From positions 46,441-110,440 of the forward strand of contig CABYND010000004.1 of NCBI GenBank assembly GCA_902520195.1: DNA of 64,000 nucleotides, written 5' to 3'. Below, in pieces: positions 26,672 to 59,789 of this stretch (the stretch's first letter is position 1; every line of letters begins with the position of its first letter). Origin of the DNA: Halieaceae bacterium. GTDB taxonomy: Bacteria > Pseudomonadota > Gammaproteobacteria > Pseudomonadales > Halieaceae. Under the pieces are notes generated by a model that saw only the letters and a program-made list of their open reading frames with translations, did no database searches and was not told the DNA's origin. A program made the position numbers and the translations under genes.

Positions 26672-26699
26672 CGAAAAACCCCCGCCGATGGCAAGGGTT
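26672..26699 (-). terminator. Rho-independent terminator immediately 3' of tRNA-like repeat copy A
   Basis: On minus strand AACCCTTGCC-ATC-GGCGGGGGTTTTT: 10-bp stem (G-U allowed) and T-tract. Confidence 0.6.
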
Positions 26700-26708
26700 C
26701 GTAATTTG

Positions 26709-26803
26709 ATAGGACCAGGCGGATTCGAACCGCCGACCTCTACCATGTCAAGGCCGCTTGTACCATGTCAAGGCCGCTTGGCCAAACTAAGACACGCTTA
26801 GAC
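26709..26803 (-). repeat. tRNA-3'-half-like repeat, copy A, with internal 20-bp tandem duplication
   Basis: TAGGACCAGGCGGATTCGAACCGCCGACCTCTACCATGTCAAGGCCG; the 20-mer taccatgtcaaggccgcttg occurs twice in tandem at 26741 and 26761. Confidence 0.85.
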
Positions 26804-27084
26804 ACCATCAAGTTTAAATTAGAGCCGAAGCGGGTCAAGGTGTGGGCGCGTGTGTGAGCCTGTGATGCTCAACGGCGAATTTCCGGTTCTACCTATCGTT
26901 TACTTGCACCAGGCAAGCTCTCCCCATCAGACGCCCTTAATCGAAGTGCACATTTGACAGTGCCACCAGTAATCAGCATGGCCGCTCATTTATTTTCTCG
27001 CTATCCTCCCCTCAGGCGCATGATGTAAGAGTGTTGCTGAAACATTAGAGTCCGCGGTCAAAAACGCATTAGAAAGGGGATGCC

Positions 27085-28533
27085 ATGGCATCTCATCGCC
27101 ATAGTTATCGGTGGGTTTATTTATTTTTAGCGCTGCTTTTGAGTGCGCCCTATTTTGCCGCCGAAACAAAAAGTACGGAACCTCTTCAATGGCCTAGCAC
27201 CAACATAGTCATTTTGTTGGTTGACGACCTTGGCTGGGGGGATGTGGGCTACCATAATCCCGAGGTAGCGACCCCGCACATAGACAATATTGCGGCTCGT
27301 GGCGTCGAGTTCGACCGCTTTTATGTAAACCCCACCTGCTCACCCACCCGCGCTTCCCTACTGACAGGCCAGTTTTCCACCACTCACGGAGTCAACAGCC
27401 CGATACAGTGGCACTCCGAAGAGGGTTTGCCTCTGGAATGGAAGACTCTGCCAGGCTATCTGAAGCGCGTCGGTTACCAGACACATTTAGTAGGCAAATG
27501 GCATTTGGGTGCCGCGAGCACTGCTTACTGGCCACAGCACCGCGGTTTCGATTCGTTTTATGGGCACCTCAATGGAGGCATTGGGTACTTTGACCATGTA
27601 TTTTCCGGAGGATTGGATTGGCAGAAGGGTGGGGTGACCCTTCGTGAGGAGGGTTACACGACCCAGCTTATCAAACGTGCCGCTGTAGAACTGATTGAGA
27701 ACCGCTCCACTGAGGATGAGCCACTATTTCTCTTGGTGTCATTTAATGCCATTCACACGCCAATCGAAGAGCCTCAGGATGTGGGAGCGGAGCATCAGGG
27801 GCGCGCTACCCTGCTCCGGATGATCGCCTCTCTAGACAGTGCTGTTGGAGAGATACTTAGCAGCTTGATGCAGCAGCCTTGGGGCGAGGACACGGTAATC
27901 ATCTTTGCCAGCGATAACGGTGGCTCGTCTCCAAAGCCGTGGTGGATCGAGATGCTGATACCGCCTCTGCGCGATGGATACAGTAGTAATGGTGCTCTCA
28001 AGCAGGGCAAAGGCTCGGTGTTTGAGGGCGGCATTCGCGTGCCGGCCGCTATCTGGTGGCCAAACAAAGTAGAGTCGGGTCAACCGCTCTCAGAGGTTGT
28101 TCATATTGCTGATGTGCTTCCAACGCTATTAGATTTTATGGAGCTGAAAATCCCCAACGTGGATGGACGTAGTCTAAAAGGCGTGCTGCTAGAGGGTTTG
28201 CCACTGGAACCACGCCCTTTTGTCGTAGCCAATTTTGGTAGCGAGGCAATGATTGATTGGCCGTGGAAAATTGTGCGCGAGGGATCGTTGCCGATCACGC
28301 CTGATTTTTTAAAGTCTGACACCTGGCATCTGTACAATATTGAGTCAGACCCAGGAGAAGTTGTTAATTTGCGCGAGAAATTTCCTCAACGCTTTGAACG
28401 TATGCGAAACAAACTTTTGCAGATTCCCAGACGTGAGTCGGTGCAGTTCTCCACCGATGGGTCTTGGGATACTTTTGGTGGTCACGAGACCCGAGCACCC
28501 TGGGCTGAGGCAGTAAGGGGTTACGACAACTAG
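27085..28533 (+). CDS. Sulfatase (arylsulfatase family)
   Basis: CSPTRASLLTGQ (C-x-P-x-R formylglycine motif), LLVDDLGWGDVGYHN, GKWHLG. Confidence 0.92.
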   Translation: MASHRHSYRWVYLFLALLLSAPYFAAETKSTEPLQWPSTNIVILLVDDLGWGDVGYHNPEVATPHIDNIAARGVEFDRFYVNPTCSPTRASLLTGQFSTTHGVNSPIQWHSEEGLPLEWKTLPGYLKRVGYQTHLVGKWHLGAASTAYWPQHRGFDSFYGHLNGGIGYFDHVFSGGLDWQKGGVTLREEGYTTQLIKRAAVELIENRSTEDEPLFLLVSFNAIHTPIEEPQDVGAEHQGRATLLRMIASLDSAVGEILSSLMQQPWGEDTVIIFASDNGGSSPKPWWIEMLIPPLRDGYSSNGALKQGKGSVFEGGIRVPAAIWWPNKVESGQPLSEVVHIADVLPTLLDFMELKIPNVDGRSLKGVLLEGLPLEPRPFVVANFGSEAMIDWPWKIVREGSLPITPDFLKSDTWHLYNIESDPGEVVNLREKFPQRFERMRNKLLQIPRRESVQFSTDGSWDTFGGHETRAPWAEAVRGYDN

Positions 28534-28545
28534 TCTGCCGTATCC

Positions 28546-29562
28546 CTAACTTGGAATATTCGAGGGCCACAAACTGGCCTTTTTTAGCGCGGCCAGCTCA
28601 ACTGTTGCATCTGTAACTCTGGGATGTGCAAAGCTCACGCAACCGATTTGGTAGCTCGGCCTTTGCTGAAGTGCGATCCAATAGTCAAAAATTACGGGCC
28701 GTCGCTGCACCAATAGATCGAGCCAGTCACCCTCCCGGAGGCGATCTAAGATGACCATCATCCCCACGTCAGCAAGGGTAAATTGATCACCACAGATCCA
28801 CGGCCCGCCGCTGTGCTCAAGTGCTGACTCTAGTTCATCTATGTGCGCAGCCATAGCTATTGCAGATCGGTTAATGATGTCGACTACAGGCTTCAGTTTG
28901 AGTGTTTTCCGTAAGCCACTCAGCTTCATAAGCAAAAAGAAAATTGCCCGCTTTTTGATGCGATGGAAGAGCACTCCTTCCGCGATTTTTCTAACGGGGG
29001 TATTCGCCACCATGGATGCGAAAATTGGAATGGTCAAACCGGGGGCCGCGTTACCGGCTGTGGCTTCGGGCGAGGAGATAGGGTCGTCTCCCAGCAGGGA
29101 GGTTTTTTCTACCCACGCATCCATGACTTGCCGCGCTTGTGCATCTCGAGGCAACAGCAAGTCGCCGTTTTTTACCATAGATGCTACGTAGCGCAGTTGC
29201 TCGTGGGATTCGTATATCGGATGGCCCTCATGTAACAACACTGGCACCGTGGCAGCAGGATTGACCTTTAGAAATTCGCGGCTAATGTTTTGATAGTAAC
29301 CGGTTTCAATGAGCTCGATCACGACGCTATCGTAGTCCACTCCATACTCTGTCAAGCAAACACGGAGTTTTTTTGAACAAAGCGAAAACGGGTTGTGATA
29401 AAGCGTCCACTGCGCTTGGTGCGGCAGGCTGATCTGCGCCTGAAACCCGTGCGGCACTTCGCTAGTTTGTCGCAGTGCACGTTCCCGCAAAAAAAGCGCT
29501 AGGGCTAGAAGAGCAATGAACAGTGCCACCCCGCCAACCAACGTATTTAGGTCGGTTGGCAC
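28546..29562 (-). CDS. Glutathione S-transferase-family protein with N-terminal membrane anchor
   Basis: Hydrophobic LVGGVALFIALLALALFL, then WTLYHNPFSLCSKKLRVCLTEYGVDYDSV...VNPAATVPVLLHEGHPIYESHEQLRYV; C-terminal QFTLADVGMMVILDRL. Confidence 0.8.
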   Translation of the reverse strand: MPTDLNTLVGGVALFIALLALALFLRERALRQTSEVPHGFQAQISLPHQAQWTLYHNPFSLCSKKLRVCLTEYGVDYDSVVIELIETGYYQNISREFLKVNPAATVPVLLHEGHPIYESHEQLRYVASMVKNGDLLLPRDAQARQVMDAWVEKTSLLGDDPISSPEATAGNAAPGLTIPIFASMVANTPVRKIAEGVLFHRIKKRAIFFLLMKLSGLRKTLKLKPVVDIINRSAIAMAAHIDELESALEHSGGPWICGDQFTLADVGMMVILDRLREGDWLDLLVQRRPVIFDYWIALQQRPSYQIGCVSFAHPRVTDATVELAALKKASLWPSNIPS

Positions 29563-29565
29563 GAT

Positions 29566-30504
29566 CTACTGTCCTGGCATGCCGTCGGGGCCCCAGTGTG
29601 TGCCGAGAAGATCCTCGAGCCCTCGTTTTTGAGAGCCAGAGGATTCATTCAGCAGATCACCGTCGGTAAAGTGCTCCAACGTAAAGCCATCTGGGTCTTT
29701 CCAATAGTCGAAAGTCTGGCTACCCAGAATATGCTTGCCGACTCCAAATGAATGGCGGTGCCCCGCCTTCAGAAGCGCGTAATGGCTTGTCATCAAAGCG
29801 TCCCAGTTTGTCACCTCAAACGCTGCATGATTGAAACCCGCCTGATCGGCGTTGATAAAAAATAGCGTGTGATGATCCACGTATTTCTCGCCTCTATTAC
29901 AGCGCGTAAAAGCCCCTAATGTTTCCTGTTTTCCCTCGTTATCTATTACGATCTCGTCGGAAATCAGCAAGCCAAATCTCACCTGATACCACTCAAGGGT
30001 CTCATTAAAATCAGTGACCATGAGCACGACATGACCTAATCTTTTAATCAGGCTATCAGCATCAACGAAGGTCACTCGCTCCCCCAGCCGAAGTTTTTCT
30101 ACTCCATCGTTGAGACCAGAGCGGCTGGCTGGAGTGAGTAGCGGAGAATCAGCGAGATTGGCGACAACCTCTACTGAGAAACCATTGGGGTCGGTGAGTC
30201 GCGCTATCAGACCACCGCCCGGCAAATCATTGGCTTCTACCGGCACACCATCAGTGGCCGCGATATGTCTCAGGGCGGCCTCAGACTCAGCTGCGAAACC
30301 CACGCTGATCAAGGCCGGATCACTGGATTGCTCAGCGATATAAATATAGGGGCTTGCGTCGGTGCCCCGCGCGATCAATAAACCGTTACTGATCTCAGAC
30401 TTAAAGCCGAAATCCTCAAGAAACTGCTGCTGAACTTGTAAATCAGTGACTGAGAATCTGACATAGAGAACATCTTTGATAGTCCCCACAGTCTCCCCCA
30501 ACAT
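29566..30504 (-). CDS. VOC-superfamily extradiol dioxygenase-like protein
   Basis: Two VOC repeats; LGHVVLMVTDFNETLEWYQVRFG, FNHAAFEVTNWD, FDYWKDPDGFTLEHFTDGD. Confidence 0.85.
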   Translation of the reverse strand: MLGETVGTIKDVLYVRFSVTDLQVQQQFLEDFGFKSEISNGLLIARGTDASPYIYIAEQSSDPALISVGFAAESEAALRHIAATDGVPVEANDLPGGGLIARLTDPNGFSVEVVANLADSPLLTPASRSGLNDGVEKLRLGERVTFVDADSLIKRLGHVVLMVTDFNETLEWYQVRFGLLISDEIVIDNEGKQETLGAFTRCNRGEKYVDHHTLFFINADQAGFNHAAFEVTNWDALMTSHYALLKAGHRHSFGVGKHILGSQTFDYWKDPDGFTLEHFTDGDLLNESSGSQKRGLEDLLGTHWGPDGMPGQ

Positions 30505-30507
30505 TTA

Positions 30508-30525
30508 ACTTGCCAATCGACAAGT
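30508..30525. promoter_or_regulatory. Candidate TetR operator (ACTTG-N8-CAAGT)
   Basis: Inverted repeat between divergent dioxygenase and TetR genes. Confidence 0.35.
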
Positions 30526-30573
30526 AATATATAAAGTGGCGAAGATTGATACAAGTTTGATTGCAACCATACT

Positions 30574-31230
30574 ATGCAAAACAACGCGCAAATCGCCGCA
30601 GCGAGGAGTGAGCGCAAGCTCAGGGATGCTGAGGCCACGAGACGAAAACTGGTAGACGCCGCTCTGCTAGCTTTTTCTACACAGGGCTACGACGGTTCCT
30701 CCACTCGCAATATAGAGACTCAGGCGGGCACCAAAAGGGGTTTAATTAACTATCACTTCGGCTCGAAAAAAGCGCTTTGGAAAGCTGCGGCCGAGCACTT
30801 GATGTCGATCACAGAGCGCGACCTTGGCGCCGCTTTAGCTGACATGAATAAACTTGATGAAGATCAACAATTACGATTTCTTATCCGCTCTTACGTCCAA
30901 TTTTGCGCCAAACATCCCGAACTTAATCGACTCATGATTCAAGAAGGAATGGCTCGCGACTGGCGCCTAAGTTGGTTGCTTAAGCGCGCGGTTCGACCGT
31001 GGTACGAACAGGTATGTCGCGTATTCAATCGCGCTGCTGAGCTCGGCACAGCACCTAAAATGGACGCGCATCACTTCTATTATGTACTGACCGGCGCGGC
31101 TACATTGATCTTTTCGAACGCTGCCGAGGCTGCCGCGCTGTCGAGTGAGAATCCCCTTGCGCCAAAAGCTGTTGACACTCATGCCAACGCAGTGGCCGAT
31201 TCGCTCACATTGAACAGGAGTCCACTATGA
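30574..31230 (+). CDS. TetR/AcrR-family regulator
   Basis: N-terminal HTH: LVDAALLAFSTQGYDGSSTRNIETQAGTKRGLINYHFGSKKALW. Confidence 0.88.
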   Translation: MQNNAQIAAARSERKLRDAEATRRKLVDAALLAFSTQGYDGSSTRNIETQAGTKRGLINYHFGSKKALWKAAAEHLMSITERDLGAALADMNKLDEDQQLRFLIRSYVQFCAKHPELNRLMIQEGMARDWRLSWLLKRAVRPWYEQVCRVFNRAAELGTAPKMDAHHFYYVLTGAATLIFSNAAEAAALSSENPLAPKAVDTHANAVADSLTLNRSPL

Positions 31231-32099
31231 GATTGATTTCCTTTACCGAATCCTCGAATACACGCATCGGCCTTCTTCAGGGCGATCATATAATTGATCT
31301 TTCACAGGTTGCCCCAAGTTTGCCCAGCGATATGCTGAGTTTTTTAGAGGCAGGTGATGGCGCCATGCTCCAGGCTGCCAAGTACACAAGCGCTTCGGGA
31401 CATTATTCTGCGTTAGATGTAGTGATTGAGGCTCCTTTGGCAAGGCCGCCGAAGATATTAGCTATTGGCCTGAATTACCGTGCCCACGCCAAAGAGAGCA
31501 ACATGGACATTCCCAAGCACCCGATGGTTTTCACGAAACAGGCAACCTCGGCCAATGGTCCCTACGCACCCATTCATTCGCCCCCAGAGACCCAGATGCT
31601 GGACTATGAGGGCGAACTGGGCGTGGTGATTGGTAAGCGTTGCCGACGCGTCAGCAAGCAAGATGCAAACAGAGTTATTGCAGGCTTTTGCGTTTTGAAT
31701 GATGTAAGCGTTCGCGAGTGGCAGTTTTTAGCGACACCACCACAATTCACGATGGGTAAATCTTGGGATACTCACAATCCCTTCGGCCCAGCCATTGTGA
31801 CTCCGGACGAAGTTGATCCGCACAATCTCATGCTTCGCACTTTCGTTAACGGCGATCTGCGCCAAAAAACCAGCACAAGTGATTTGATCTTTAATTGCTA
31901 TGACATCATCGAATTCTTGACCACTGCTTTTACCCTAGAGCCTGGCGACGTCATCGCTACAGGTACCCCTAGTGGCGTGGGTATTTCCATGCAACCACAA
32001 GGCACGCTGAAGCTTGGCGATGTAGTAAAAGTTGAAATTGATGGCCTTGGATTTATAGAGAACGAGGTCATTGCTGAGCCTGATACCGCTGCGATTTAG
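31227..32099 (+). CDS. Fumarylacetoacetate hydrolase family protein
   Basis: ILAIGLNYRAHAKESNMDIPKHPMVFTKQ, LDYEGELGVVIGK, DVIATGTPSGVG. Confidence 0.92.
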   Translation: MRLISFTESSNTRIGLLQGDHIIDLSQVAPSLPSDMLSFLEAGDGAMLQAAKYTSASGHYSALDVVIEAPLARPPKILAIGLNYRAHAKESNMDIPKHPMVFTKQATSANGPYAPIHSPPETQMLDYEGELGVVIGKRCRRVSKQDANRVIAGFCVLNDVSVREWQFLATPPQFTMGKSWDTHNPFGPAIVTPDEVDPHNLMLRTFVNGDLRQKTSTSDLIFNCYDIIEFLTTAFTLEPGDVIATGTPSGVGISMQPQGTLKLGDVVKVEIDGLGFIENEVIAEPDTAAI

Positions 32100-33658
32100 T
32101 GAGCTCCGCTACTCCAAATAATACCTTTGATGTAGCTGTTGTCGGGCTTGGTCCCGTCGGGAGTTTGGGGGCGATTTTATTTGCTGAGGCCGGGTTGAGA
32201 GTCGTTGCTCTTGAAAAACAGACCGATGTGTGGCCGTTGCCCAGAGCTGTGAACCTTGATGGTGAGATCATCAGGGCGCTTCAACCCGTTGGTCTTGCGA
32301 AGCCGGTACAGCAACTGATGCAGCCGCTTCGCCCAGGTGAGCGAGCAGGCTTCGTTAACTCCAGACGAGAATGGTTATTTGGCGGTGACGCCAGACCTAT
32401 TGGTAGTAATGGCTGGCAACCAGCCAACATGTTTGATCAGCCGGAGCTTGACGCTTTTCTCCGAAAAACCGCGCGGTGTCATCCTAATGTGACTACGTAT
32501 ATCAGTCATGAAGTGACTCGATTTAGCAGCGGCAAAGAGCAGGTCGAAATCCAAGCGGTAGGAAAAGATGGAGAGATTTCGCTGTCCGCTAGCTATTTAG
32601 TGGCATGCGACGGGGCGAATAGCCCGACACGCAAAGCTTTGGGTATTTGTTGGCGGGACCTGGGGTACGACCAAGATTGGCTTGTAGTGGACGTGGAGAT
32701 GATCAGATCTCACGGCTTACCGAACGAGGTGATGCAGGTGTGTGATCCTGATCGTCTCCATACCTTTGTCGCCACTAAGGACCCTTTCCGTCGCTGGGAA
32801 TTCCAGTTGCATGCTGGAGAAACAGCGGAGCAAATGCTTGATCACGATACTGTTCATGCCCTTCTGGATCCCTGGACGCCAAGGGATACATATCGCCTGA
32901 GACGAACAGCTGTATATCAGTTTCACGCGGCAGTGGCTGATAAGTGGCAGCATCATCGAATTTTTTTGGCTGGCGATTCCGCTCATCAGACACCTCCCTT
33001 TTTAGGGCAAGGGATGAACTCTGGCATGCGTGATGTGATCAATCTCGCCTGGAAACTCCCGTTAGTAAAAAGTGGCTGTTGCGCCATGGAATTACTTGAA
33101 ACCTACCAAGCCGAGCGGCATGACCACGTGCACGATCTTGTCTCTTGGGCAGTGGAAATGGGCCACCTTATGCAGCACATGGCTGACGTAGAGGCAGCAG
33201 AGCGTCTGGCTATAGAGCCACCGCAAATGGAGCGAACCTCCTTAAAATCGGGCTACGGCCAAGGTCGCGAACAACCGCCTATTCGATCTGGCATTGTCGT
33301 TACAGAACAGGTTTCTAATGAAGGGGCCGCAGGGTACCTGCTACCTCAGCCCGTTGTTCGCGACGGCCAGGGCCGTGAGATGCTCTTTGACGAGCTGCTG
33401 GGGGCGAAATTTGCATTGGTATGTAATGGGCCACATACATTCGATGAGGACACTACGTCAGTGTCAAGAGCGCTAGAAATTCAGATGGTTGATGTTTCGA
33501 AGCTTGAAATCGTTCGGGGTAAATTTCCCGCTTGTCTGAAGCAGGGTGAAGCTCTGCTGCTCCGACCAGACCGAATCGTATTCGGTCATACCAACGCGGA
33601 TGTGTCAGCAGATACTTTACTTACCCGGTTAGCCGACTCGCTCAAATTTCTAGGCTAA
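32099..33658 (+). CDS. FAD-dependent aromatic monooxygenase, MhpA/PheA-like
   Basis: VAVVGLGPVGSLGAILFAEAGLRVVALEKQ, YLVACDGANSPTRKALG, IFLAGDSAHQTPPFLGQGMNSGMRDVINLAWKL. GTG start overlaps the upstream stop. Confidence 0.9.
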   Translation: MSSATPNNTFDVAVVGLGPVGSLGAILFAEAGLRVVALEKQTDVWPLPRAVNLDGEIIRALQPVGLAKPVQQLMQPLRPGERAGFVNSRREWLFGGDARPIGSNGWQPANMFDQPELDAFLRKTARCHPNVTTYISHEVTRFSSGKEQVEIQAVGKDGEISLSASYLVACDGANSPTRKALGICWRDLGYDQDWLVVDVEMIRSHGLPNEVMQVCDPDRLHTFVATKDPFRRWEFQLHAGETAEQMLDHDTVHALLDPWTPRDTYRLRRTAVYQFHAAVADKWQHHRIFLAGDSAHQTPPFLGQGMNSGMRDVINLAWKLPLVKSGCCAMELLETYQAERHDHVHDLVSWAVEMGHLMQHMADVEAAERLAIEPPQMERTSLKSGYGQGREQPPIRSGIVVTEQVSNEGAAGYLLPQPVVRDGQGREMLFDELLGAKFALVCNGPHTFDEDTTSVSRALEIQMVDVSKLEIVRGKFPACLKQGEALLLRPDRIVFGHTNADVSADTLLTRLADSLKFLG

Positions 33659-33680
33659 TCGCACGTTATCTTTGCTCGGT

Positions 33681-33834
33681 GGTGTCCACGTACTGAGACA
33701 AGCCAAAACGCACGGTTCTGAAAAAAAGTTGAATAAAAACAGTGGCCCGAAAATTTGATAGGACCAGGTCGATTCGAACCGCCGACCTCTACCATGTCAA
33801 GGCCGATTGGCCGCACCAAGACACGCGTGGACAC
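33681..33834 (-). repeat. tRNA-3'-half-like repeat, copy B, long form with AT-rich flank and terminal inverted repeats
   Basis: GGTGTCCACG (33681) ... CGTGGACAC (33826) bracket cacggttctgaaaaaaagttgaataaaaacag plus the tRNA-like core. Confidence 0.8.
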
Positions 33835-34027
33835 TCATGCGTTACATGAATAAAGGGAGAAGTAAAAAGAAGTGGCTCGAAGTCTGACGTTTGCGAAGAC
33901 CCATTATTCATACTCGTCCACGCCTACGAGGTTGCTGACAACACCGCCACAGTTTGGCTGCCGCACAGGTTTGGTTGCCTCTGCGAGCGGTGCCTAGGTC
34001 TCGCCGACTGATGGCCGAAATCGGGAG

Positions 34028-34792
34028 TTACTGCGCCAGGAACCCCCCATCAATCGGATACACGCCGCCAGTGCAGAACGATGCGTCGTCACTCGCCAAA
34101 AACGCCACCATCGCCGCGACCTCGTCATCCGTGCCATATCGTTTCATGGCAATAAGTGATTCAAAACCCTCTTTGGCAGCATTGGGTGCGCCCGGCGCCG
34201 CCTGTTCTTCGATGGATCTCATCATTGCATTGTCGATGGGAGCTGGCGCTATTGCGTTTACACGGACACCTCGCTCGGCGAGTTCTAGCGCTGCAACTTC
34301 AACAAGACCCACGATGGCATGCTTACTTGCTGTATACGCCCCCAAGCCCGGGACACCCACTTTTCCCGTTACGGAACTTGTAACAATCACTGAGCCGCCG
34401 TTACCGAGTATGTGAGGGATGCAGTGCTTCATTGTTAGCCAGGTCCCGCGTATGTTTGTATTCTGCACCGCATCAAATTCATCTTGCTCTATTTCTAGAA
34501 GCGGTTTTATAGACCCCTCAATACCTGCGTTACAGAACAAAATATCTATCCCTCCCATCTCGGAGATACTCCGTTCTGCCAGTGACTTGCAGTCTGTCTC
34601 GCTAGAAATATCAGTAGGGCAGATATGGACCCTGTCGCTATCCAATTTGTCCGCCAGTTTCAACAGCGTTTCACCTGAACGCGCAGCCAGCATGACTGTG
34701 GCCCCCTCTGCGAGCAGGCGTCGCGCAGTCGCCTCACCTATGCCACCGGTTGCACCCGTAATTACAGCTCTTTTATCTTCGAGTCGCTTCAT
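34028..34792 (-). CDS. Short-chain dehydrogenase/reductase
   Basis: ITGATGGIGEATARRL, NAG, SSVTGKVGVPGLGAYTASKHAIVG. Confidence 0.92.
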   Translation of the reverse strand: MKRLEDKRAVITGATGGIGEATARRLLAEGATVMLAARSGETLLKLADKLDSDRVHICPTDISSETDCKSLAERSISEMGGIDILFCNAGIEGSIKPLLEIEQDEFDAVQNTNIRGTWLTMKHCIPHILGNGGSVIVTSSVTGKVGVPGLGAYTASKHAIVGLVEVAALELAERGVRVNAIAPAPIDNAMMRSIEEQAAPGAPNAAKEGFESLIAMKRYGTDDEVAAMVAFLASDDASFCTGGVYPIDGGFLAQ

Positions 34793-34826
34793 TTCCCTTG
34801 GTTACCCCATTGTTTTGATATTCGGC

Positions 34827-38158: not shown

Positions 38159-38186
38159 CGAATTTACTCCAGAAAACTCATGATAT

Positions 38187-38200
38187 TGACATCAGTGTCA
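38187..38200. promoter_or_regulatory. Candidate TetR operator TGACA-TCAG-TGTCA
   Basis: Perfect 5-bp inverted repeat between divergent PEP-utilizing operon and TetR gene. Confidence 0.4.
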
Positions 38201-38226
38201 GTGAAAAGTATACGTATTGAGGCGAG

Positions 38227-47812: not shown

Positions 47813-47884
47813 GCGCATTTGACACGCAACCCTCTGAGGTTTTGGTTATGCATCGCGTGCCTGTGTGTGACGCGTAAATTGGGG

Positions 47885-47910
47885 AAACCCGGCTTTGTGC
47901 CGGGTTTTTC
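47885..47910 (+). terminator. Rho-independent terminator after the TonB receptor
   Basis: AAACCCGGC-TTTGT-GCCGGGTTTTTC. Confidence 0.75.
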
Positions 47911-48064
47911 TTATGGCGTGCTGCCGGACGGAATGGGTAACGCGAGACTGGATCTTGCGTTTTGACTTTTCGGATGTCGTCGCCAGCAACACCCTGCAAA
48001 TCAGTCCGCCAGGCGTGATCTGTCGATCGTCTTTGGGGCTTTGAGCCAGCTAAACCCCCCTCAC

Positions 48065-48088
48065 GAAAAACCCGGCACAAGGCCGGGT
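48065..48088 (-). terminator. Rho-independent terminator 3' of tRNA-like repeat copy C
   Basis: Minus strand CCCGGC-CTTGT-GCCGGG followed by TTTTT. Confidence 0.65.
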
Positions 48089-48099
48089 CTGTGGTATTT

Positions 48100-48178
48100 G
48101 GCAGTACCAGCCAGATTCGAACTGGCGACCTCTACCATGTCAAGGCCGATCGGCCGCACCAAGACACGCGTGGACGCG
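48100..48178 (-). repeat. tRNA-3'-half-like repeat, copy C, variant T-arm/acceptor
   Basis: GCAGTACCAGCCAGATTCGAACTGGCGACCTCTACCATGTCAAGGCCGATCGGCCGCACCAAGACACGCGTGGACGC; core identical to other copies but with a different T-stem. Confidence 0.85.
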
Positions 48179-48258
48179 GTAAGTCTGCCCTACTTATCCT
48201 TTGAGGAAAATCTATAAGCATCCGAAACTATGGCTGGTTTACGGTCGATCCCTAGCAC

Positions 48259-50484: not shown

Positions 50485-50614
50485 AAGTTTTTCTCTGACT
50501 CACAAATCCCTACGACGTATTTGCGCTAAGCCCGTGGATAGGCGTTCGCCTGCAACAATCTATCCATTCTGATGGATTTGTCCCTATCCTGAATCGTTGA
50601 TTGTTCGCCTATCG

Positions 50615-50657
50615 CCACCATGTCAATGCCGATTGGCCACACCAAGACAGGTTTAGA
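50615..50657 (-). repeat. Truncated copy F of the tRNA-like repeat (anticodon/D-arm region only)
   Basis: CCACCATGTCAATGCCGATTGGCCACACCAAGACAGG, same orientation as the full copies, T-arm/acceptor missing. Confidence 0.6.
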
Positions 50658-50830
50658 GGCGTCAAAGATTAGCAATTGGCTAGTCAGGCCACAGCGCTTT
50701 TGAGTAGACGGCAAGGTCAGGCACGCAGACCGCAAATCCTGCGTCAATGGAATCCATTGATATTTGTCTATGTCCTGGCAGGCAGGTAATTTGAGTGAAT
50801 ACACTTGGGAAGAGAGTCTCTGGAGGTAAC

Positions 50831-52942
50831 ATGATGGTCAAAAGGAGAGCTCGGCCGTTGCTAGCAGCCGCACTCATCGCGGGCGCCCTGACCGCATGTG
50901 GAGGCGGTGGCAGTCCTGCTGCTACCCCTCCAGCCCCGCCTGCAACCACGACGCCGAGTCAAACTGGATTCTCGGTGGGTGGCAGCATTACGGGATTGAA
51001 GTCAAACCGGCCAATCGTTTTATCTCTCGGCGATCAGCAACTTTCGATTCAAGAAGGCGAGTCATTTGTTTTTCCAGATGAGTTGGAGGAGGGCGCGGAG
51101 TATGAGGTGTTAATCGCTGGTGAACCGCCGCGCTTTGACTGCGAAATATCGAATAATTCCGGGACGATCGCTGAACAAGATGTCGACGATATTGAAATCC
51201 ATTGTGAAACAAACGACAGCTTCGACCTTTTCTCGCTCAATCGATTGCACTCCATAAAACTGACAATGACCGTTGACGAATGGCGAGCATTTGAGCTCGA
51301 CACCATCAGAGCCAACTATTCGGTTAAAAATGCCGACGGACGTGCTAACCCACTGACCTCTTTCTCACACAGCGAAGTTTATCGTCAGGCAGATTTCGCG
51401 TATCTGGACGACGATGGCACCGAAATAGCATCGATGCCTAAGGTCGGTTTTAAGATGCAAGGAAACACTAGTCGGCAGTACCCCATTGACACTTCGGTAG
51501 AGCCAAACAAGCCAAGAAGATTTAGTTTCTCAATCAAATTCGATGAGGAATTTGATGAGGATGAAAGTGTCTACTCCTGTATAGATTACAACGGCGTGCC
51601 GGCGGCTGTAGAGGGTTTTCCTTGCAAGGGAATTGTTGGCCAAGACGTACCGGACTATCCAGACGCCGATGGAAGAGAGTTTATGGATGTGGAGAAAGTC
51701 CGGTTCAGATTCAATCGGGACGACCCCACCTACCAGCGAGAGGTGCTTACCCATGAGCTACTGAACGATATAGGTATCCCTGCGGCCAGAGCGACACATG
51801 CAAAGGTTGAATTAGTTGTGACTGGGGACTCCGATCAGCGACTTTTTGGCCAACCATTGCCGCAATCTTTCAACATGGGTGTGTTTACCATGATGGAGCA
51901 GATTGATAAGCCCTTCCTCAAACTGTTTTTTGACAAGAATGGATATCTGTTCAAGGTTGGTGCCCCAGGGAACCTAGCTGAGCCGGATGCCACAGATGAG
52001 AGTTGCTCACCTTATGAAGAATCAGATCTGTTTTACGATGAGAGTTTCTGCGTCATTGGCCGCGAAAAATCTGATCCAGATTCGCGGTTGGAGTGGCTTG
52101 GGGAAGATAATTACCTGAATCCCGAATTCGTTAATTCAAACATCAACGGTGAAGGGCCATCAGGCCCGCTATCTCAGTTTTTACCCTATCAACCCACCTA
52201 TGACCTCAAGACTAAGAAAAAGTCTTTGGGCGAGGCCCGGGAAGCATTGCGAGAATTTGCGAACTTTGTGCAGTCACGTCCCAGTGCACAGGCCCTGGCA
52301 GAAAAATTTGATGTGCCGGGGTTCATAAAGGCCCAAGCGCTCGAGATTGTAGTCGGCGCAGTTGACCATTATGTGCGTGTCGCAAACAACTACTATCTAT
52401 ATTTCAATGAGGACACCAGCCTGTGGGCGTACATACCGACGGACTTTGATTACACCTTGATTGATACGCTTGGGCCAGACTGTAAAGCAAATCCTACGCT
52501 GGAGATCTGTAATCAATTTCTGAACGTCGAGGCTTTTACGGATATTGCGTCCATGACAGCATTTGATGTCGGAGTGAACAACCACTGGGCTAGCAGATTC
52601 TTCTATCCGAACTATCCACCAATATTGTGGGAGATAGTTTTCTCCTCAGATGCCAATCGCGCAGCTCTGTATGAAGACATAAAAATGATTCTGGATGACT
52701 ATTTTTCATGGGATCTCATACAGCCTCGACTTGAGCTGAGAAGGGACAGGGTAGAGGCAGCGGTGGTCTCCACGGATGCCTCAAACCCTGAGGTACTTGG
52801 CGGGGGAACGTGCCCTCAACAGTACAACCCAGACGAAATAGCGGGTGACTTCTCGTCTTTTTGTGACAAAAATAGGGCGTCAATTAGAGATTTTATCGAA
52901 CGAAGACGAAGCGTTTTACTTGAGGAATACAACTCACAATGA
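50831..52942 (+). CDS. CotH-family protein kinase-like lipoprotein
   Basis: Lipobox LTAC-GGGG; VGFKMQGNTSRQYP, KPRRFSFSIKFDEEF, YLYFNEDTSLWAYIPTDFDYTLIDT. Start at ATG 50831 with ggagg RBS. Confidence 0.82.
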   Translation: MMVKRRARPLLAAALIAGALTACGGGGSPAATPPAPPATTTPSQTGFSVGGSITGLKSNRPIVLSLGDQQLSIQEGESFVFPDELEEGAEYEVLIAGEPPRFDCEISNNSGTIAEQDVDDIEIHCETNDSFDLFSLNRLHSIKLTMTVDEWRAFELDTIRANYSVKNADGRANPLTSFSHSEVYRQADFAYLDDDGTEIASMPKVGFKMQGNTSRQYPIDTSVEPNKPRRFSFSIKFDEEFDEDESVYSCIDYNGVPAAVEGFPCKGIVGQDVPDYPDADGREFMDVEKVRFRFNRDDPTYQREVLTHELLNDIGIPAARATHAKVELVVTGDSDQRLFGQPLPQSFNMGVFTMMEQIDKPFLKLFFDKNGYLFKVGAPGNLAEPDATDESCSPYEESDLFYDESFCVIGREKSDPDSRLEWLGEDNYLNPEFVNSNINGEGPSGPLSQFLPYQPTYDLKTKKKSLGEAREALREFANFVQSRPSAQALAEKFDVPGFIKAQALEIVVGAVDHYVRVANNYYLYFNEDTSLWAYIPTDFDYTLIDTLGPDCKANPTLEICNQFLNVEAFTDIASMTAFDVGVNNHWASRFFYPNYPPILWEIVFSSDANRAALYEDIKMILDDYFSWDLIQPRLELRRDRVEAAVVSTDASNPEVLGGGTCPQQYNPDEIAGDFSSFCDKNRASIRDFIERRRSVLLEEYNSQ

Positions 52943-53003
52943 AGCGGAGTCGTATTTCTATCTCTGCAAGTCGTTGGTAAGACTGGTAACTACCTTTACT
53001 CGT

Positions 53004-53148
53004 TAGCGTTCATGCGCAAAAACACACGGTTCTGAAAAAAGTTGAATAAAAACAGAGGCTGAAAAATATGGTAGGACCAGGCGGATTCGAACCGCCGACC
53101 TCTACCATGTCAAGGCCGATGGGCCGCACCAAGACACGCGTGGACGCC
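53004..53148 (-). repeat. tRNA-3'-half-like repeat, copy D, long form
   Basis: gcgttcatgcgcaaaaacacacggttctgaaaaaagttgaataaaaacagaggc...gtaggaccaggcggattcgaaccgccgacctctaccatgtcaaggccg...gcgtggacgc. Confidence 0.85.
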
Positions 53149-53273
53149 TCAAAACCTAACCCTGCCAATATCAGCTGTCAATCAACACCAATCAGCGAGC
53201 AGATCCCAAAAACTCCTTCCAGATTGAGCGCAATGAGCGCCCGCTGACTTTGGCACTATCCAAGGATTCTCCG

Positions 53274-53293
53274 ATGATATGATGTATCATATC
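53274..53293. promoter_or_regulatory. Candidate Zur operator GATATGAT-GT-ATCATATC
   Basis: Perfect 8-bp inverted repeat in front of the DUF1636-znuCBA block; shares ATGATA...TGTATCAT with the 11289 site. Confidence 0.65.
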
Positions 53294-53327
53294 TCTAGAG
53301 CGCGCACCTGAATGCAAAGCTATACCA

Positions 53328-53801
53328 GTGCAGCTAGAGGTGGCGTCCCAAAAATCTGACTTGATACTGGACTCCAAGCTGATAGGCATGGCCTTACAAC
53401 AGATCGCAATCAATGAATGCGTCCTGCACGTCTGCACCTCATGTAGGCCGAGTGGACATAGCAGGAATCAAGCTACACAGCGTCCTGGCTATCGGCTATA
53501 CGAAAAGCTTTTTTCTTCTGTACAGTGCGGCTCATTGGCGGGCCGTGTTGAAGTCAAACCAGCGCAATGTCTCAGTCTATGCCCAAGGCCCTGTGGTATC
53601 GCTGTCTCTGCACACAACAGCTGGACTTACTTGTTCGGAGACCAAGACCCTAATGGTGACGTGACCGACATCCTCAACTGTCTGCAGCTTTACCTGCAGT
53701 CCGGCGACGGGATGATGCCAAGAAGGGAGAGGCCAGCATCGCTCCAAGCGAGTGTGCTAGGTCGTCTACCTCCTCCAAGTCATAACTATGAAATCGAATA
53801 A
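53328..53801 (+). CDS. DUF1636-like metal-binding protein (start may be 53388)
   Basis: VLHVCTSCRPSG...VEVKPAQCLSLCPRPCGIAVSAHNSWTYLFGDQDPN...LQLYLQSGDGMMPRRERPASLQASVLGRLPP. Confidence 0.7.
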   Translation: MQLEVASQKSDLILDSKLIGMALQQIAINECVLHVCTSCRPSGHSRNQATQRPGYRLYEKLFSSVQCGSLAGRVEVKPAQCLSLCPRPCGIAVSAHNSWTYLFGDQDPNGDVTDILNCLQLYLQSGDGMMPRRERPASLQASVLGRLPPPSHNYEIE

Positions 53802-53915
53802 TCAATCAGCAAAGCAGTGCCCCTTTTGCTTAAGTCAATGTGGGCGAGACGCTCTGACGACAGCTGCAATAACTCTATCAGTAAGCCTTTGGATGCTGAT
53901 TTGGATGGTTCGCTG

Positions 53916-54674
53916 ATGTCGAGCGACCTCCAGATTCGTGATCTTACTGTTGGGTTCTCTGGCCGAACTCTGTTTAGGGCTCCTGACATGGATGTCCCCG
54001 CGGGGACAACGCTGGCCGTTTTGGGCGCCAACGGCTCAGGTAAAAGTAGTTTTATCAAAGCGCTCTTGGGTGTTTTGAGCCCATTGTCGGGCGAAGTCAT
54101 TTGGCCTCACCAAAAATCTCATGCTATTGCCTACCTGGCGCAGAGAACGGAATTTGATCAGCTTTTCCCTCTACGCGTCAGGGATCTGATCGCCATGGGT
54201 AAGTGGCGAGGCACTCGCTTTTGGAGTCGGCGTAGTTGGGCGCACAGCGATGAGTTGCTGGATGCTGCTGCGCGAGTCGATCTACAAGGCGTTCTGAACG
54301 AGCCAATGCACATTCTTTCGGGTGGTCAGTTACAACGCGCACTTTTTGCCCGCGTCATTATGCAAGACGCACCTTTCGTGGTCCTGGACGAACCCTTTAC
54401 GGCGATAGACCAGAAAACAGAACGGTTGCTTCAGGAGCTTATTTTAGAGTGGCGAGAACAGGGCCGCACAGTGGTGTTGGCGATTCATGATCTTTCCGCT
54501 GTCTTGCGACATTGTGATGCTGCTTTGCTATTGGGAGAGGGTCGCGCCACATTTGGTGCTCCAGCGGAGGTGCTAACGCCCCAAAATTTGATTGAGCAGG
54601 GATACCTGTCACGCGATCGAGCTGCCTGGATCGTCGACCACCAAGTCTCGTTGGGCTTGAAACGCAGTGCTTGA
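53916..54674 (+). CDS. znuC: Zinc ABC transporter ATP-binding protein
   Basis: LGANGSGKSSFIKALLG Walker A, LSGGQLQRALFARVI signature, VVLDEPFTAID; next to the matching permease and binding protein. Start at internal ATG 53916. Confidence 0.88.
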   Translation: MSSDLQIRDLTVGFSGRTLFRAPDMDVPAGTTLAVLGANGSGKSSFIKALLGVLSPLSGEVIWPHQKSHAIAYLAQRTEFDQLFPLRVRDLIAMGKWRGTRFWSRRSWAHSDELLDAAARVDLQGVLNEPMHILSGGQLQRALFARVIMQDAPFVVLDEPFTAIDQKTERLLQELILEWREQGRTVVLAIHDLSAVLRHCDAALLLGEGRATFGAPAEVLTPQNLIEQGYLSRDRAAWIVDHQVSLGLKRSA

Positions 54675-55554
54675 TTTAGTCTCAGAAATGTGGGGCTACA
54701 GTTTTATGCGGCGCGCCTTCGCAGCGACTACCGTCTTGTCTATTTCGATGGCTCCGGTTGGTGCCTTTCTTGTGCTTCGCAGGCTTTCGCTTGCCGGTGA
54801 GGCAATGGCACATGCCATTACGCCCGGCATAGTCATCGCTTTTGTCTTTACTGGCCTCTCCGTCACGTCACTTCTTGTCGGAGGGCTGGCGGCTGGGATG
54901 GCGGTGGCCACCCTATCTGCGGTGCTTTCTCGCACCACTATCATTCGCGGCGACGCCAGCCTCGCGTCGTTTTACCTCATCGCTCTGGCGCTGGGGATAT
55001 TCATATTGTCTGCGGCAGGGTCAGCTGTGCCTTTAAGGAGTTTTCTGTTTGGCTCGATTTTGGGGCTCGATGATGAGTCGCTGTTACTGCTGGGTGTGGT
55101 GGCCACTGTCACCCTGGTTTCATTTTCATGGCTGCTGCGACCGCTGATCATGTCCACATGTGACCCGGCCTTTTTTGAATCACAGGCAACAAGGCCGTGG
55201 GTTACGGACCAAATCTTTATGGTCCTATTGGTCCTCAACTTACTCGGTGCCTTTAAGACGATGGGCACGTTGATGGCAGTTGGATTGCTAATCCTTCCTG
55301 CTACCGCCGCCCGTTGTTGGGCAGTAAGTATCACTGGACAAATTGGACTCGGTGTCCTCTTTTCTTTGATGAGCTCTTGGCTGGGGCTGTGTATTTCCTA
55401 TGCGTTTCCAGACACTCCGTCAGGTCCATCGATCATCTTAGTAGCTGGCTTTATATTCCTTTCGTCCACGTTAGTCGGGCCTTTCGGTTTTGGACGAAGG
55501 ATCAGGTTGCGGCCTTTAAAAGCTGACGAGCCGAGAACGGGAGCATCAGTATAG
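54667..55554 (+). CDS. znuB: Zinc/manganese ABC transporter permease
   Basis: FLVLRRLSLAGEAMAHAITPGIVIAFVFTG and ABC-3 family topology. Confidence 0.9.
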   Translation: MLDLVSEMWGYSFMRRAFAATTVLSISMAPVGAFLVLRRLSLAGEAMAHAITPGIVIAFVFTGLSVTSLLVGGLAAGMAVATLSAVLSRTTIIRGDASLASFYLIALALGIFILSAAGSAVPLRSFLFGSILGLDDESLLLLGVVATVTLVSFSWLLRPLIMSTCDPAFFESQATRPWVTDQIFMVLLVLNLLGAFKTMGTLMAVGLLILPATAARCWAVSITGQIGLGVLFSLMSSWLGLCISYAFPDTPSGPSIILVAGFIFLSSTLVGPFGFGRRIRLRPLKADEPRTGASV

Positions 55555-55555
55555 G

Positions 55556-56515
55556 ATGCCGAGCTTAATGCCTTCACCTCGCCGAACTTTCATCTGGGCA
55601 TTGTCCTGTGCATTAGGTGTCATGTCGCAGTCATCTCTCGCAAACGAGCTTCGTGTCGTCGCCAGCTTTTCAATACTCGCCGATATGGTTTCTGAGATTG
55701 GGGGTGAAGCGATCGAGGTTGAGAGTGTTGTGGGGCCCGATGCGGATGCCCACATTTACCAGCCGTCAGTTGCGGACGCTATAGCCGTAGCTCGGGCCGA
55801 TGTTGTTTTCGTAAACGGACTCGGTTTCGAAACTTGGTCCAACACACTGATATCCGAATCAGCAAGCAGTGCGGTCGTGGTTGTCGCCACTGAGGGTATT
55901 AGGCCAATAGACGTAGAGGGTTCAGTTGATCCTCATGCATGGAACTCGCTTGAGAATGGCATGGTGTATGTGCGAAATATCGCGGCCGCGCTGAGTGCGA
56001 TCGCGCCGTGGTCAGCTGATCAAGTGAACGCAAATGCGGCGGCCTACATACAGCGACTTGAGTCAGTCGATCGCAATATTACTCGCCGCGTCTCTCGGCT
56101 ACCGGAATCGAACAGGATCGTGGTGACGTCCCACGACGCCTTTGGGTACTTAGCTAAAGATTATGGTCTTACTTTCTTAGCCACGCAGGGCATCGACACT
56201 GATGCGGAACCCACGGCTCGAAACCTTGTCGAGTTGATCGAACAACTAAAAAATGTGGGAGCAGCGGCACTTTTCGCCGAGAACATTACAAGTCCCGCAC
56301 TTATCAATCAAATTGCTCGTGAGACAGGTATTGAGGTTGGCGGGCGTCTGTATTCAGACGCGCTGTCGGCTCGTGGTGGTCCCGCGAAGAGCTATCTGGA
56401 AATGTTTACACACAACACCGACAGCATATTGGAGGCTCTTGAGCGTAGCTCACAACGAAGAGTTGCGACAGAGCAAGAAATAATCCGTCAGCCTCAGCTG
56501 ACCATGATGGAGTGA
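55556..56515 (+). CDS. znuA: Zinc ABC transporter substrate-binding protein
   Basis: [61 protein letters not shown]. Confidence 0.92.
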
Positions 56516-56525
56516 GGAGATTTTT

Positions 56526-57872
56526 ATGAATGCTGAAGCAAAAGTGCCCGTGACGATTCTGACGGGTTTCCTGGGTTCAGGTAAGACGACTCTCCTAAAC
56601 AAAATTCTCAGCGAAGAGCATGGTAAGCGCATTGCCGTGATTGAGAACGAATTTGGCGAGGTTGGCATCGATCAGGCGCTGGTGATCGAGGCGGACGAAG
56701 AGATATTTGAAATGTCCAACGGCTGTATTTGTTGCACCGTGCGGGGAGATTTGATTCGTGTTCTTGGTAATCTGATGAAGCGTCGAGATAAATTTGATTA
56801 CGTTCTGGTTGAGACGACGGGGCTAGCGGATCCAGGGCCGGTTGCCCAAACATTTTTCATGGATGATGAGATTCGCGAAGAGTTCGCTCTCGACGGCATC
56901 GTGACTTTGGTTGATGCAGGACATATCAATCAACAGCTCGGTCGAAGTGACGAGAGTGAGGAGCAAGTCGCTTTTGCCGATGTGCTAGTGCTCAACAAAA
57001 CTGATCTTGTGGATGACGCCACCTTGGACGATCTCGAAGCCCGCCTTCGGGAAATGAATCGCATGGCAAGAGTAGTGCGATGTGAGCAGGCAGAGGTCCC
57101 TGTTGATACGGTGCTGAATCTGAGCGCTTTCAATCTTGAGGAGGCACTAGAGCGTCGCCCTACGTTTCTTGAGCCTGAGTACCCCTTCGAGTGGACAGGG
57201 GTGTATCAGCTCTCACCTGGTCGGTATCAACTGGATTTAGCCGAGGGCCCTGACCCGGCTATGTCGCTAGTTGTTCGACCCGGTCAGGTGTTAGATGATG
57301 CGGGTTTGCGTGAAGGAGCTGAGTGGTGTGTGCGCCGCTACGCTGAGCCGACTTGCAGTGTTGACGTCGGTGGAGTGGTAAAAGCTGGCGAGCACGCATG
57401 CCTTGAGCTGTCATCTGCTGGACGAAAATCCTTTTTCTTTGATGTTGCCGCCGAGGATACTGTTGGTCTCTTCACCCAACATACAGCGGAAGAGTTTGAT
57501 CTGAAGCTAAGAGGCCCAGATGGTGAGGAGGTGCCGCCCTCAGCAGAGAGAACATGGGTTGCACAACACGAGCATGATGATGAAGTTGGCTCCATTGCGA
57601 TTGAGCGCGATGGTGATGTTGATCCGGAAAAACTGAATCGCTGGTTGGGCAAGCTTCTGCAAGAACGTGGCGTAGATATCTTTCGAACAAAGGGCATCAT
57701 CAGTATCGCCGGTGATCCGATGAGAATGGTTTTCCAGGGTGTTCACATGCTGTTAGATGCGCAACCAGATCGCCCCTGGGGTGACGATCCAAGACGGAAT
57801 CAGCTGGTATTGATTGGCCGCAATCTCGACGAGCAGGCCATACGAGAAGGGTTTGACGCCTGTTTGCTATGA
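56526..57872 (+). CDS. COG0523-family GTPase/metallochaperone
   Basis: [60 protein letters not shown]. Confidence 0.92.
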
Positions 57873-58900
57873 CCGAAGGTAAAGTCACAGGTGTTTTACA
57901 AAGCGACTGGTCGGCTGCAATACAGGATTACCCCATGGCTTCGTGTTGGACGCACGATGGTGGTGCGCTTGTGGTGTGCGATAGCGCGGGGGGCGTATAC
58001 GCCTTTGATTCTCAGCAGGGTGAACTGCTGTGGTCTGAGCAAAGCGCGCATGAGGGCGGGGCTCTGGCAATGAGCATGCACCCGCGGGAGACGCTGTTTG
58101 CTACTGCTGGGCAGGACGGGAAGATCCTCATATGGGACCTCAGTGAGGCCCGCCCCCGATGCTGTATCGAGATTGGCAGCGGTTGGGTGGAAAACCTGCT
58201 TTGGTCGCCTGATGGTGCCCAACTGGCTTCCTCCCATGGGCGCGAGATCCAGATTTTTGCCGCAGACGGCACAGAGCAATGGCGCTCGGACGAACACCTC
58301 AGTACCGTGAGTGCTCTTGGCTGGCTGAATAGCAAAGAGCTAGTGTCCACATGTTATGGCAGGGTGACTATTTTTGATTCAGGCACTGGAGGGTCTGACC
58401 AGCGCTTCGAGTGGAAAGGCTCTCTGGTGTCACTCGCGCTGAGCCCGGACGGTGATGTCATAGCGTGTGGCAGCCAAGATAACTCTGTACATTTCTGGCG
58501 CCGATCGACTGGGGAAGACTCGATGATGTCTGGCTATCCAGGTAAGCCAACAGCTCTGGCTTTTGATTCGACCGGAACCTTGTTGGCAACTGGGGGAGGC
58601 GACGCAGTAACCGTCTGGAGCTTCGAGGGAAATGGGCCAGAGGGTACTTATCCTGGTTCGCTAGAGCTCCATGAGCGCGCGGTATCAGCACTCAGTTTTG
58701 CCCCAGACGGACTTACATTGGCATCTGGCGGACGAGATGGATTGGTCTTTGTCTGGTCACTACAGAGTGATGGTCAAGGGCGGCCCGAGGGCGCGGCCAT
58801 GCTGGAGAGTGTTCTGGCCGAGGTCTGTTGGCGACCAGATGGCAAGGCGCTCGCTGCATTAGATGGCGAGGGTATCGTGACGGTTTGGACGGTGTCGTGA
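57869..58900 (+). CDS. WD40-repeat protein
   Basis: Repeated units such as [49 protein letters not shown]; overlaps the COG0523 stop. Confidence 0.9.
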
Positions 58901-59340
58901 AAGACATTAAGAATATTTTTCGTAATGTAGAGCGAAGATTGCGAGCCTCGCGTTGGTTTGAGGACGAGTGGGAGATCTATAACCGAGGCAACTACTTGCA
59001 ATTAGCAAAAAGTAATTGGTGTAACGGGAGTCAGGGAGGAGTGCACTTTGAGACCTATATCGAAGCCCCTCAGCTCAAAAAGAAAGCGTTCCCAATATGC
59101 ATGCACGCAGAGGAGGACTGCCCATCGCAGGCGAAGTTTATTGACGATTTTCTAATGCTAGAGCGCGCGCGGATAGGAGCCTGGAAAGGGTATCGGGTAA
59201 CCGGTGATGGCTACTCAATATGTCAGCGAGAGCTACCTTTGAATTTCAAAAATCTCGAGGAGAGGCTGCTCGAGGAGCTGAATCGTCTGCGCCAACTTGA
59301 GGCTAGTGTCGATAGGGTACTGGCGAGTCTGACGCCGTAG
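58897..59340 (+). CDS. Hypothetical protein
   Basis: GTG start overlapping the WD40 stop (gtgtcGTGA); about 147 aa soluble protein. Confidence 0.6.
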   Translation: MKDIKNIFRNVERRLRASRWFEDEWEIYNRGNYLQLAKSNWCNGSQGGVHFETYIEAPQLKKKAFPICMHAEEDCPSQAKFIDDFLMLERARIGAWKGYRVTGDGYSICQRELPLNFKNLEERLLEELNRLRQLEASVDRVLASLTP

Positions 59341-59364
59341 CCGATTAGTGCTTGGCCGAATCTT

Positions 59365-59565
59365 GTGGAGGGCCAATTGAAAAAGCAACGGAGCCCGTGC
59401 CGAAACATCTGTGATTTCTCTGGACCCAAAGGTTGGTGTGTGGGATGCGGCAGGACAAAAGCAGAGACAAGGAGTTGGCAGAGCTTGAAACCTTTTGACC
59501 GGAAACGGATTGAGAGGGAGTTGATCAAGAGGCTGTCGAAGGTCACGGCAGACAAGTTGGATTAA
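59365..59565 (+). CDS. DUF1289 domain-containing protein
   Basis: SPCRNICDFSGPKGWCVGCGRTKAETRSWQSLKPFDRKRIERELIKRL. Confidence 0.82.
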   Translation: MEGQLKKQRSPCRNICDFSGPKGWCVGCGRTKAETRSWQSLKPFDRKRIERELIKRLSKVTADKLD

Positions 59566-59632
59566 CTGCTAGCATCGTTATCGGCTGCACGCCTCTACAC
59601 GACAACTGCCCGATCACTACCTTTCAGCGGTA

Positions 59633-59789
59633 GCGTCCACACGCAAAAATACGCTAAAACGCGCGATTTTGAAAAAATAAAGTCGAACAAAAACAGAGGC
59701 TTAGAAATTTGGTAGGACCAGGCGGACTCGAACCGCCGACCTCTACCATGTCAAGGCCGATTGGCCGCACCAAGACAAGCATGGACGTT
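59633..59789 (-). repeat. tRNA-3'-half-like repeat, copy E, long form
   Basis: gcgtccacacgcaaaaa...aacaaaaacagaggcttagaaatttggtaggaccaggcggactcgaaccgccgacctctaccatgtcaaggccgattggccgcaccaagacaagcatggacgt. Confidence 0.85.

Follow-up and report, generated by a model that had tools for sequence, protein, structure and literature searches.

Halves of a tRNA-Val(GAC) gene as probable attachment sites of a tandem island array in a Halieaceae genome

Introduction

A 64,000-nucleotide stretch of a Halieaceae bacterium (the window; contig C4, CABYND010000004.1, positions 46,441 to 110,440) raises the question of why the same tRNA-like sequence recurs between its metabolic operons. A first-pass annotation, made from the sequence alone, had described nearly identical minus-strand repeats, had read them as scars of attachment (att) sites bordering functional modules, and had seen no integrase. 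We confirmed six copies in the window, five good and one partial, and sequence comparison with relatives indicates that they are very probably att sites of an array of islands accreted in tandem downstream of a tRNA-Val(GAC) gene. The host is a Luminiphilus-type (OM60/NOR5) marine gammaproteobacterium of the Halieaceae, and its own assembly (G000) comprises 2.1 Mb at 69% completeness. Among named genomes, a search with the integrase described below reached Luminiphilus syltensis NOR5-1B and metagenome-assembled Halieaceae genomes, which bear the genus label of the window.

Repeat copies and their parent gene

All six copies read as 3ʹ halves, from anticodon loop to CCA, of tRNA-Val(GAC). Their positions in the window are as follows.

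26707-26797, minus strand: half-site 1, the distal-most; upstream arm, core with a 20-bp internal duplication, and tRNA-Val 3ʹ half
33756-33831, minus strand: half-site 2; upstream arm (GTCC at -32), core and decayed tRNA-Val 3ʹ half
48099-48174, minus strand: half-site 3; T-stem of another lineage type, with a tRNA-Val-type terminator next to it (about 48064-48090)
50606-50649, minus strand: partial half-site; upstream arm and start of the core, without T-arm
53069-53144, minus strand: half-site 4; source of a false ARAGORN tRNA-Thr call
59710-59785, minus strand: half-site 5, the tRNA-proximal copy

The Val-GAC-like origin proposed earlier was borne out when the intact parent gene was located on another contig of the same assembly (C28:16543-16619). 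The last 47 nt of a good copy, running from the anticodon loop to CCA, match it at 47 of 47 positions, so that, as in tRNA-integrated islands with a tyrosine recombinase, the repeat reproduces the 3ʹ portion of an intact tRNA gene that borders the island. A 23-nt T-arm pattern allowing up to three mismatches matched four window copies, with 0.00 matches expected from 100 dinucleotide shuffles. When the 69%-complete own assembly was searched with the repeat, only the array, the parent tRNA-Val and a weak tRNA-Ala match were recovered, and a dispersed repeat was rejected. A solitary right (upstream) arm followed by CCTT, with neither tRNA half nor array neighbours, lies at about 141713 of contig C3 and is a possible off-site integration or relic.

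That the copies are not intact tRNAs also held. A Rfam scan of the copies returned no tRNA, the single ARAGORN call (tRNA-Thr at 53069-53163) was a mis-fold of a repeat copy, and on these outcomes an intact tRNA or other RNA family was rejected.

The 48.1-kb copy departs from the near-identity first described, in that its T-stem (GCCAG/CTGGC) is that of tRNA-Val in other Luminiphilus lineages. The terminator after it matches the tRNA flank of genome G003 at 38 of 45 positions, and T-stem and terminator of this type suggest an exchange with another lineage. The truncated form at 50606-50649 recurs at the orthologous place in two relatives (G034 and G021). Half-site 1 carries a tandem 20-bp duplication of the core (CGGCCTTGACATGGTA), as a partial or failed recombination might leave.

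Position of the array relative to tRNA-Val

Contig C28 stops 1.1 kb past tRNA-Val, within an ATP-binding cassette (ABC) ATPase gene of which it holds the first 198 codons, and the partner genes of this ATPase begin contig C4 read backwards. Because the same ABC genes are contiguous with tRNA-Val in G021 and G034, the window would represent the region downstream of tRNA-Val, with the tRNA gene lying past its right end across one contig gap.

At the other end of the array, one further feature follows half-site 1.

26672-26700, minus strand: displaced native tRNA-Val terminator (GAACCCTTGCCATCGGCGGGGGTTTTTCG), the putative right chromosomal flank of the array

This flank agrees at 38 of 47 positions with the sequence that adjoins tRNA-Val in G016 and G010, both without a half-site array, compared with only 23-24 matching positions for copies followed by a left arm. 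Since in G016 the terminator directly follows the tRNA gene, the sequence after the 26.7-kb repeat appears to be the original right flank of tRNA-Val, displaced by the array. Upstream of tRNA-Val on C28, an unrelated second tyrosine integrase (415 aa; L039:7340-8587) lies beside tRNA-Thr(CGT).

Anatomy of the half-sites

The repeats had been noticed correctly, and the unit is longer than first noted: the 47-nt tRNA half is preceded by an upstream arm of about 30 bp and, in three of the copies, followed by a downstream arm of about 75-100 bp. The upstream arm forms the right end of a module. Of 42 non-tRNA cores, 23 have GTCC in this arm exactly at -32 from TTGACAT, against an expectation of about 0.02 per site; CGTGT.TTGG comes next, and the arm exists in several lineage types; the right-arm sequence of the modules, with GTCC at -32, is CGTGTCTTGG. 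The core consists of TTGACATGGTAGAGGTC followed by the T-arm.

On the other side of the core, many modules begin with a left arm, AAATTTCTAAGCC...TTTT..., and then a dyad, CTACC-N7-GGTAG, mostly 118-121 bp past TTGACAT. The arms and spacing of this dyad equal those of the tRNA anticodon stem-loop (CTACC-TTGACAT-GGTAG), and the spacer sequence differs. In the own genome the pattern has five matches, among them those in the tRNA and in module B, versus one for the reversed control. Predicted at +118-121, the dyad was then found in four left arms of 20 further contigs (three at +121, one at +111), and in those contigs copies with a terminator or a T-loop insert after them did not have it. Direct inspection of integrase-bearing left arms revealed a related dyad just ahead of the integrase start; the left arms of cargo modules may derive from the left ends of integrase elements.

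The T-loop insert is a distinct structure. In many tRNA-Val half copies the T-loop is split by a structured insert of about 95 nt (GTTCGA | ... | AATCTGGCTGGTCCTACCA), which occurs in arrays of G030, G035, G002, G063, G066 and G077 (for example L053:10057-10170, L062:3729-3842 and L137). Strong copies in six genomes searched were confined to the tRNA-Val island. The insert folds into several hairpins (z -1.8 to -2.8), two pairs showing compensatory change, and had no match in Rfam; it is possibly a second, T-loop class of att mini-element.

Modules between the half-sites

The half-sites divide the window into the following modules, listed with the arms and dyads recognised in them.

26798-33755: module E, with sulfatase, glyoxalase-fold dioxygenase, FAD_binding_3 monooxygenase and others, and with a left arm
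33666-33755, minus strand: left arm of module E, with a decayed dyad CCACC-GAGCAAA-GATAA at 33666-33682
33832-48098: module D, with short-chain dehydrogenase/reductase, phosphoenolpyruvate-utilising and PPDK_N enzymes, P450, AMP-binding coenzyme A (CoA) ligase, aldehyde dehydrogenase and TonB receptor
48175-50605: S9 prolyl oligopeptidase module
50650-53068: module C, with a CotH-family protein and a left arm with dyad CTAAC-GAGTAAA-GGTAG at 52990-53006
53145-59709: module B, with ZnuA, ABC-3 permease, ABC ATPase, CobW, DUF1636 and WD40 proteins
59617-59633, minus strand: dyad of the module B left arm, CTACC-GCTGAAA-GGTAG, with arms and spacing as in the tRNA-Val anticodon stem-loop
59786-64000: module A, with ABC_transp_aux permease and DUF4340; its ABC ATPase and an integrase stub lie on C28, outside the window

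No relaxase emerged when selected modules of the window and part of the NOR5-1B element described below were scanned against Pfam.

Arrays in relatives and breakpoints at the repeats

Within the genus, we counted at least 24 genomes, out of about 57, with a half-site outside the tRNA. Arrays occur in G034 (six half-sites, one truncated included), G021, G035, the closed genome G006 and others. The copies are not placed or oriented at random: on multi-copy contigs of relatives, strong copies all share one orientation and lie downstream of tRNA-Val wherever the tRNA is on the same contig. The simplest form is seen in the cultured strain Luminiphilus syltensis NOR5-1B (G077), where tRNA-Val is followed by an integrase, 25 kb of cargo, a right arm, a half-site and the native terminator. 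This element (L128/L129, C1:750714-776256) encodes DUF499, DUF1156, helicase/NOV_C and DUF2130 proteins and resembles defence cargo.

Nor are the modules always contiguous; among relatives they are present, absent or reordered as units. Counted from the tRNA, the order is A, B (znu), C (CotH), S9 peptidase, D (P450 block) and E (sulfatase) in G000; A, X, S9 peptidase, D, Y and F in G034; and A, one gene, D, C and S9 peptidase in G021. Module C and the S9 peptidase thus precede module D in G000 and follow it in G021. Module D is common to G021, G034 and G032, and the cargo of module B is also found in G018, there with a different right arm. Module E, which occupies the distal slot in G000, stands directly at the tRNA in G032 and is followed by the terminator; the G000 E block and the G032 tRNA match from the core onwards (30199/19356), one of the cases in which a block end coincides with the core or falls a few bases away from it.

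In six comparisons, the blastn synteny-block ends inside the array that lay no more than 170 bp from a repeat numbered 3/3, 4/6, 5/7, 4/6, 5/5 and 5/5. With the same number of repeats placed randomly, the expectation was 0.15-0.43 (p <= 1e-4 each). Such breakpoints, together with the variation of modules as units, uphold the earlier reading of the repeats as att-like module boundaries. The array also has the composition of tandem accretion, with several units split by direct att repeats and most of them lacking an integrase.

Integrase and integrase-less units

The absence of an integrase holds for the window, but a stub of the dedicated enzyme closely follows the parent tRNA, and relatives have it intact. 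In G006, G035, G066, G077 and G005, an intact tyrosine recombinase begins about 105 bp after tRNA-Val or its core. It stands beside tRNA-Val in all five genomes with a strong match (49-100% identity to the G006 protein), the catalytic residues (R, K, HxxR, H and Y) are conserved in it, and matches to Phage_integrase and phrog_1 clearly mark it by sequence as a phage-type tyrosine recombinase. In G000, G021 and G034 only a stub of about 30 codons follows tRNA-Val, so that the tRNA-proximal att site is adjoined by an integrase, intact in five relatives and truncated in these three genomes. Directly after the integrase, G006, G035 and G066 encode a protein of about 200 aa (L051:12189-12782, L056:16044-16652) without a Pfam or PHROG match, and NOR5-1B has an unmatched open reading frame of similar size at that place.

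Viral carriage was considered and rejected, as IMG/VR contained no exact match to a 39-nt arm-and-core pattern and the integrase had only one distant viral relative (28% identity).

The same cargo was found with and without the integrase: G035 holds an integrase module plus cargo, and G001 has this cargo at its tRNA without an integrase (94-98% identity over the main blocks). Over 4.2 kb, module A of G000, with its truncated integrase, shares 99.5% identity with that of G021/G034 (96.7-98.3% in the stub part), compared with 76-89% for the flanking chromosome and 91% for module D. Because its identity far exceeds that of the flanking chromosome, this integrase-defective module has apparently spread recently among genomes. 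Its spread fits either an integrase acting in trans or homologous exchange through the tRNA and half-site; since the arms are conserved, we would rank supply in trans first.

Proposed mechanism and alternatives

In the mechanism that we propose, a circular element would arrive carrying the anticodon-loop core (CC TTGACAT GGTAG...), and the tyrosine recombinase would recombine this core with its counterpart in the tRNA gene. The incoming element's own 3ʹ half would restore the tRNA, and the displaced half would remain at the far end as a half-site. Repeated rounds would stack modules, the newest beside the tRNA, and leave every half-site facing the same way. An integrase is missing from most modules here, which nevertheless keep recognised ends, namely a right arm and often a left arm with the core-like dyad; from this we infer that they were probably moved by an integrase that another element present in the same cell provided, or travelled with an adjacent unit. 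Cleavage in the anticodon loop, circular intermediates, integrase action in trans and a route between cells are likewise putative steps.

Several observations weigh against this proposal. Some synteny breaks have no visible repeat (the F/Z border in G034; E fragments in G021), and one array-bearing G032 contig (C36) could not be placed beside its tRNA. The 69%-complete G000 yielded no intact integrase of this family, and its join between tRNA and array spans the C28-C4 contig break, though it is contiguous in G021 and G034. Furthermore, some units are not canonical elements: the left arm is missing from module D and from the S9 module, and module D starts with a tRNA-type terminator in its place. 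Because of this start, module D may have been captured along with a former tRNA flank.

The most serious alternative holds that the repeats are old att scars and that modules are now gained, lost and reordered by RecA homologous recombination between repeats of about 80-200 bp and shared modules, not by site-specific recombination. The repeats are long and similar enough for this, T-stem and terminator types are mixed between copies, and the missing intact integrase in G000 points the same way. Against it, the same module is joined at the core in slot 1 of G032 and in the distal slot of G000, an intact integrase always adjoins tRNA-Val, and closed genomes contain single simple elements. We regard it as unlikely, though by no means negligible.

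More speculative, and in our judgement rather doubtful, is an extension of the att-site reading in which a phage-type integrase and a tRNA gene together make the array a platform resembling an integron. Any stretch bounded by two half-sites of the same orientation would be a cassette that a trans-supplied integrase could excise, reorder and exchange between lineages. The left-arm dyad CTACC-N7-GGTAG, repeating the anticodon-stem arms, would be a second integrase core site that sets direction or allows capture of integrase-less units.

Very improbable is retention of the copies as functional tRNA-like RNAs or pseudo-tRNA genes: the T-arm is intact in several copies and the T-stem change of the 48.1-kb copy is paired, but that change equals the tRNA-Val of other lineages, copies lack a 5ʹ acceptor strand, the 33.7-kb copy and copies in G034 have a broken T-stem, and Rfam gave no match. 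A tRNA-derived transposon or miniature inverted-repeat transposable element inserting between operons is scarcely credible either; conserved ends do flank several modules on both sides, but all copies share one orientation, one island and one tRNA gene, the enzyme is an intact integrase rather than a transposase, only one solitary arm lies elsewhere, and the dispersed copies in both orientations and terminal inverted repeats of such families were not found. The earlier suggestion of a new tRNA-derived repeat family survives only in the sense of att sites.

Relation to known systems

Read as att sites, the repeats explain the gain, loss and reordering of metabolic operons (zinc uptake, sulfatase/aromatic breakdown, P450/CoA-ligase/TonB) at one chromosomal site and give readable borders for every unit. 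They connect the single-element island of cultured L. syltensis NOR5-1B to the long arrays of uncultured relatives, and with recombinase, site and arms named, trans-mobilisation of integrase-less metabolic islands becomes directly testable.

Integron cassette arrays have same-orientation sites and modular gene content. The array resembles them in both respects and differs in its multi-gene modules and tRNA-derived sites; no IntI or attC was recognised here, and an integron was rejected, as the borders are tRNA-Val half-sites and the recombinase is phage-type (phrog_1).

A close parallel lies in the ssrA islands of Dehalococcoides, which are arranged in tandem within 100 kb downstream of an RNA gene and bounded by direct repeats of its 3ʹ end; 15 of 31 units lack an integration module, and accretion with cis-mobilisation has been proposed (PMC3146451). 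The array described here is likewise made of tandem islands at an RNA gene, most without an integrase, but those islands use a serine recombinase, tmRNA and a 20-bp repeat (PMC3146451), whereas a tyrosine recombinase, tRNA-Val(GAC) and a 47-nt repeat with conserved arms are found here. As in cis-mobilizable elements (CIMEs) and the tandem accretion of integrative and conjugative or mobilizable elements, units without integrase or transfer genes lie between att sites (PMC5704250); no conjugation genes were recognised in the modules examined here, and a standard left arm carrying a dyad sets these units apart. The additive flexible genomic islands at tRNA-Lys of Ca. Methylopumilus, a streamlined aquatic bacterium, also have recurring direct repeats of a tRNA 3ʹ end (PMC10872708); the accessible part of that source gives a 20-bp repeat and mostly unknown cargo and names no integrase for the island. 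Tycheposons are islands of marine bacteria that target tRNA genes, use a tyrosine recombinase and carry metabolic cargo, as far as the accessible parts of two sources describe them (PMC10872708, PMC11389934), and the array shares their tyrosine recombinase, tRNA site, marine host and cargo, on the feature list in the accessible part of PMC10872708.

Because ssrA islands, CIMEs and tRNA-Lys additive islands are known, tandem accretion of att-flanked islands at RNA genes is an established phenomenon, and the array belongs to that kind. A search of open-access papers turned up nothing relevant on islands in Luminiphilus/OM60; relative to the papers that were found, what is new here is the host and site, the standardisation of right and left arms across integrase-less units, and the dyad.

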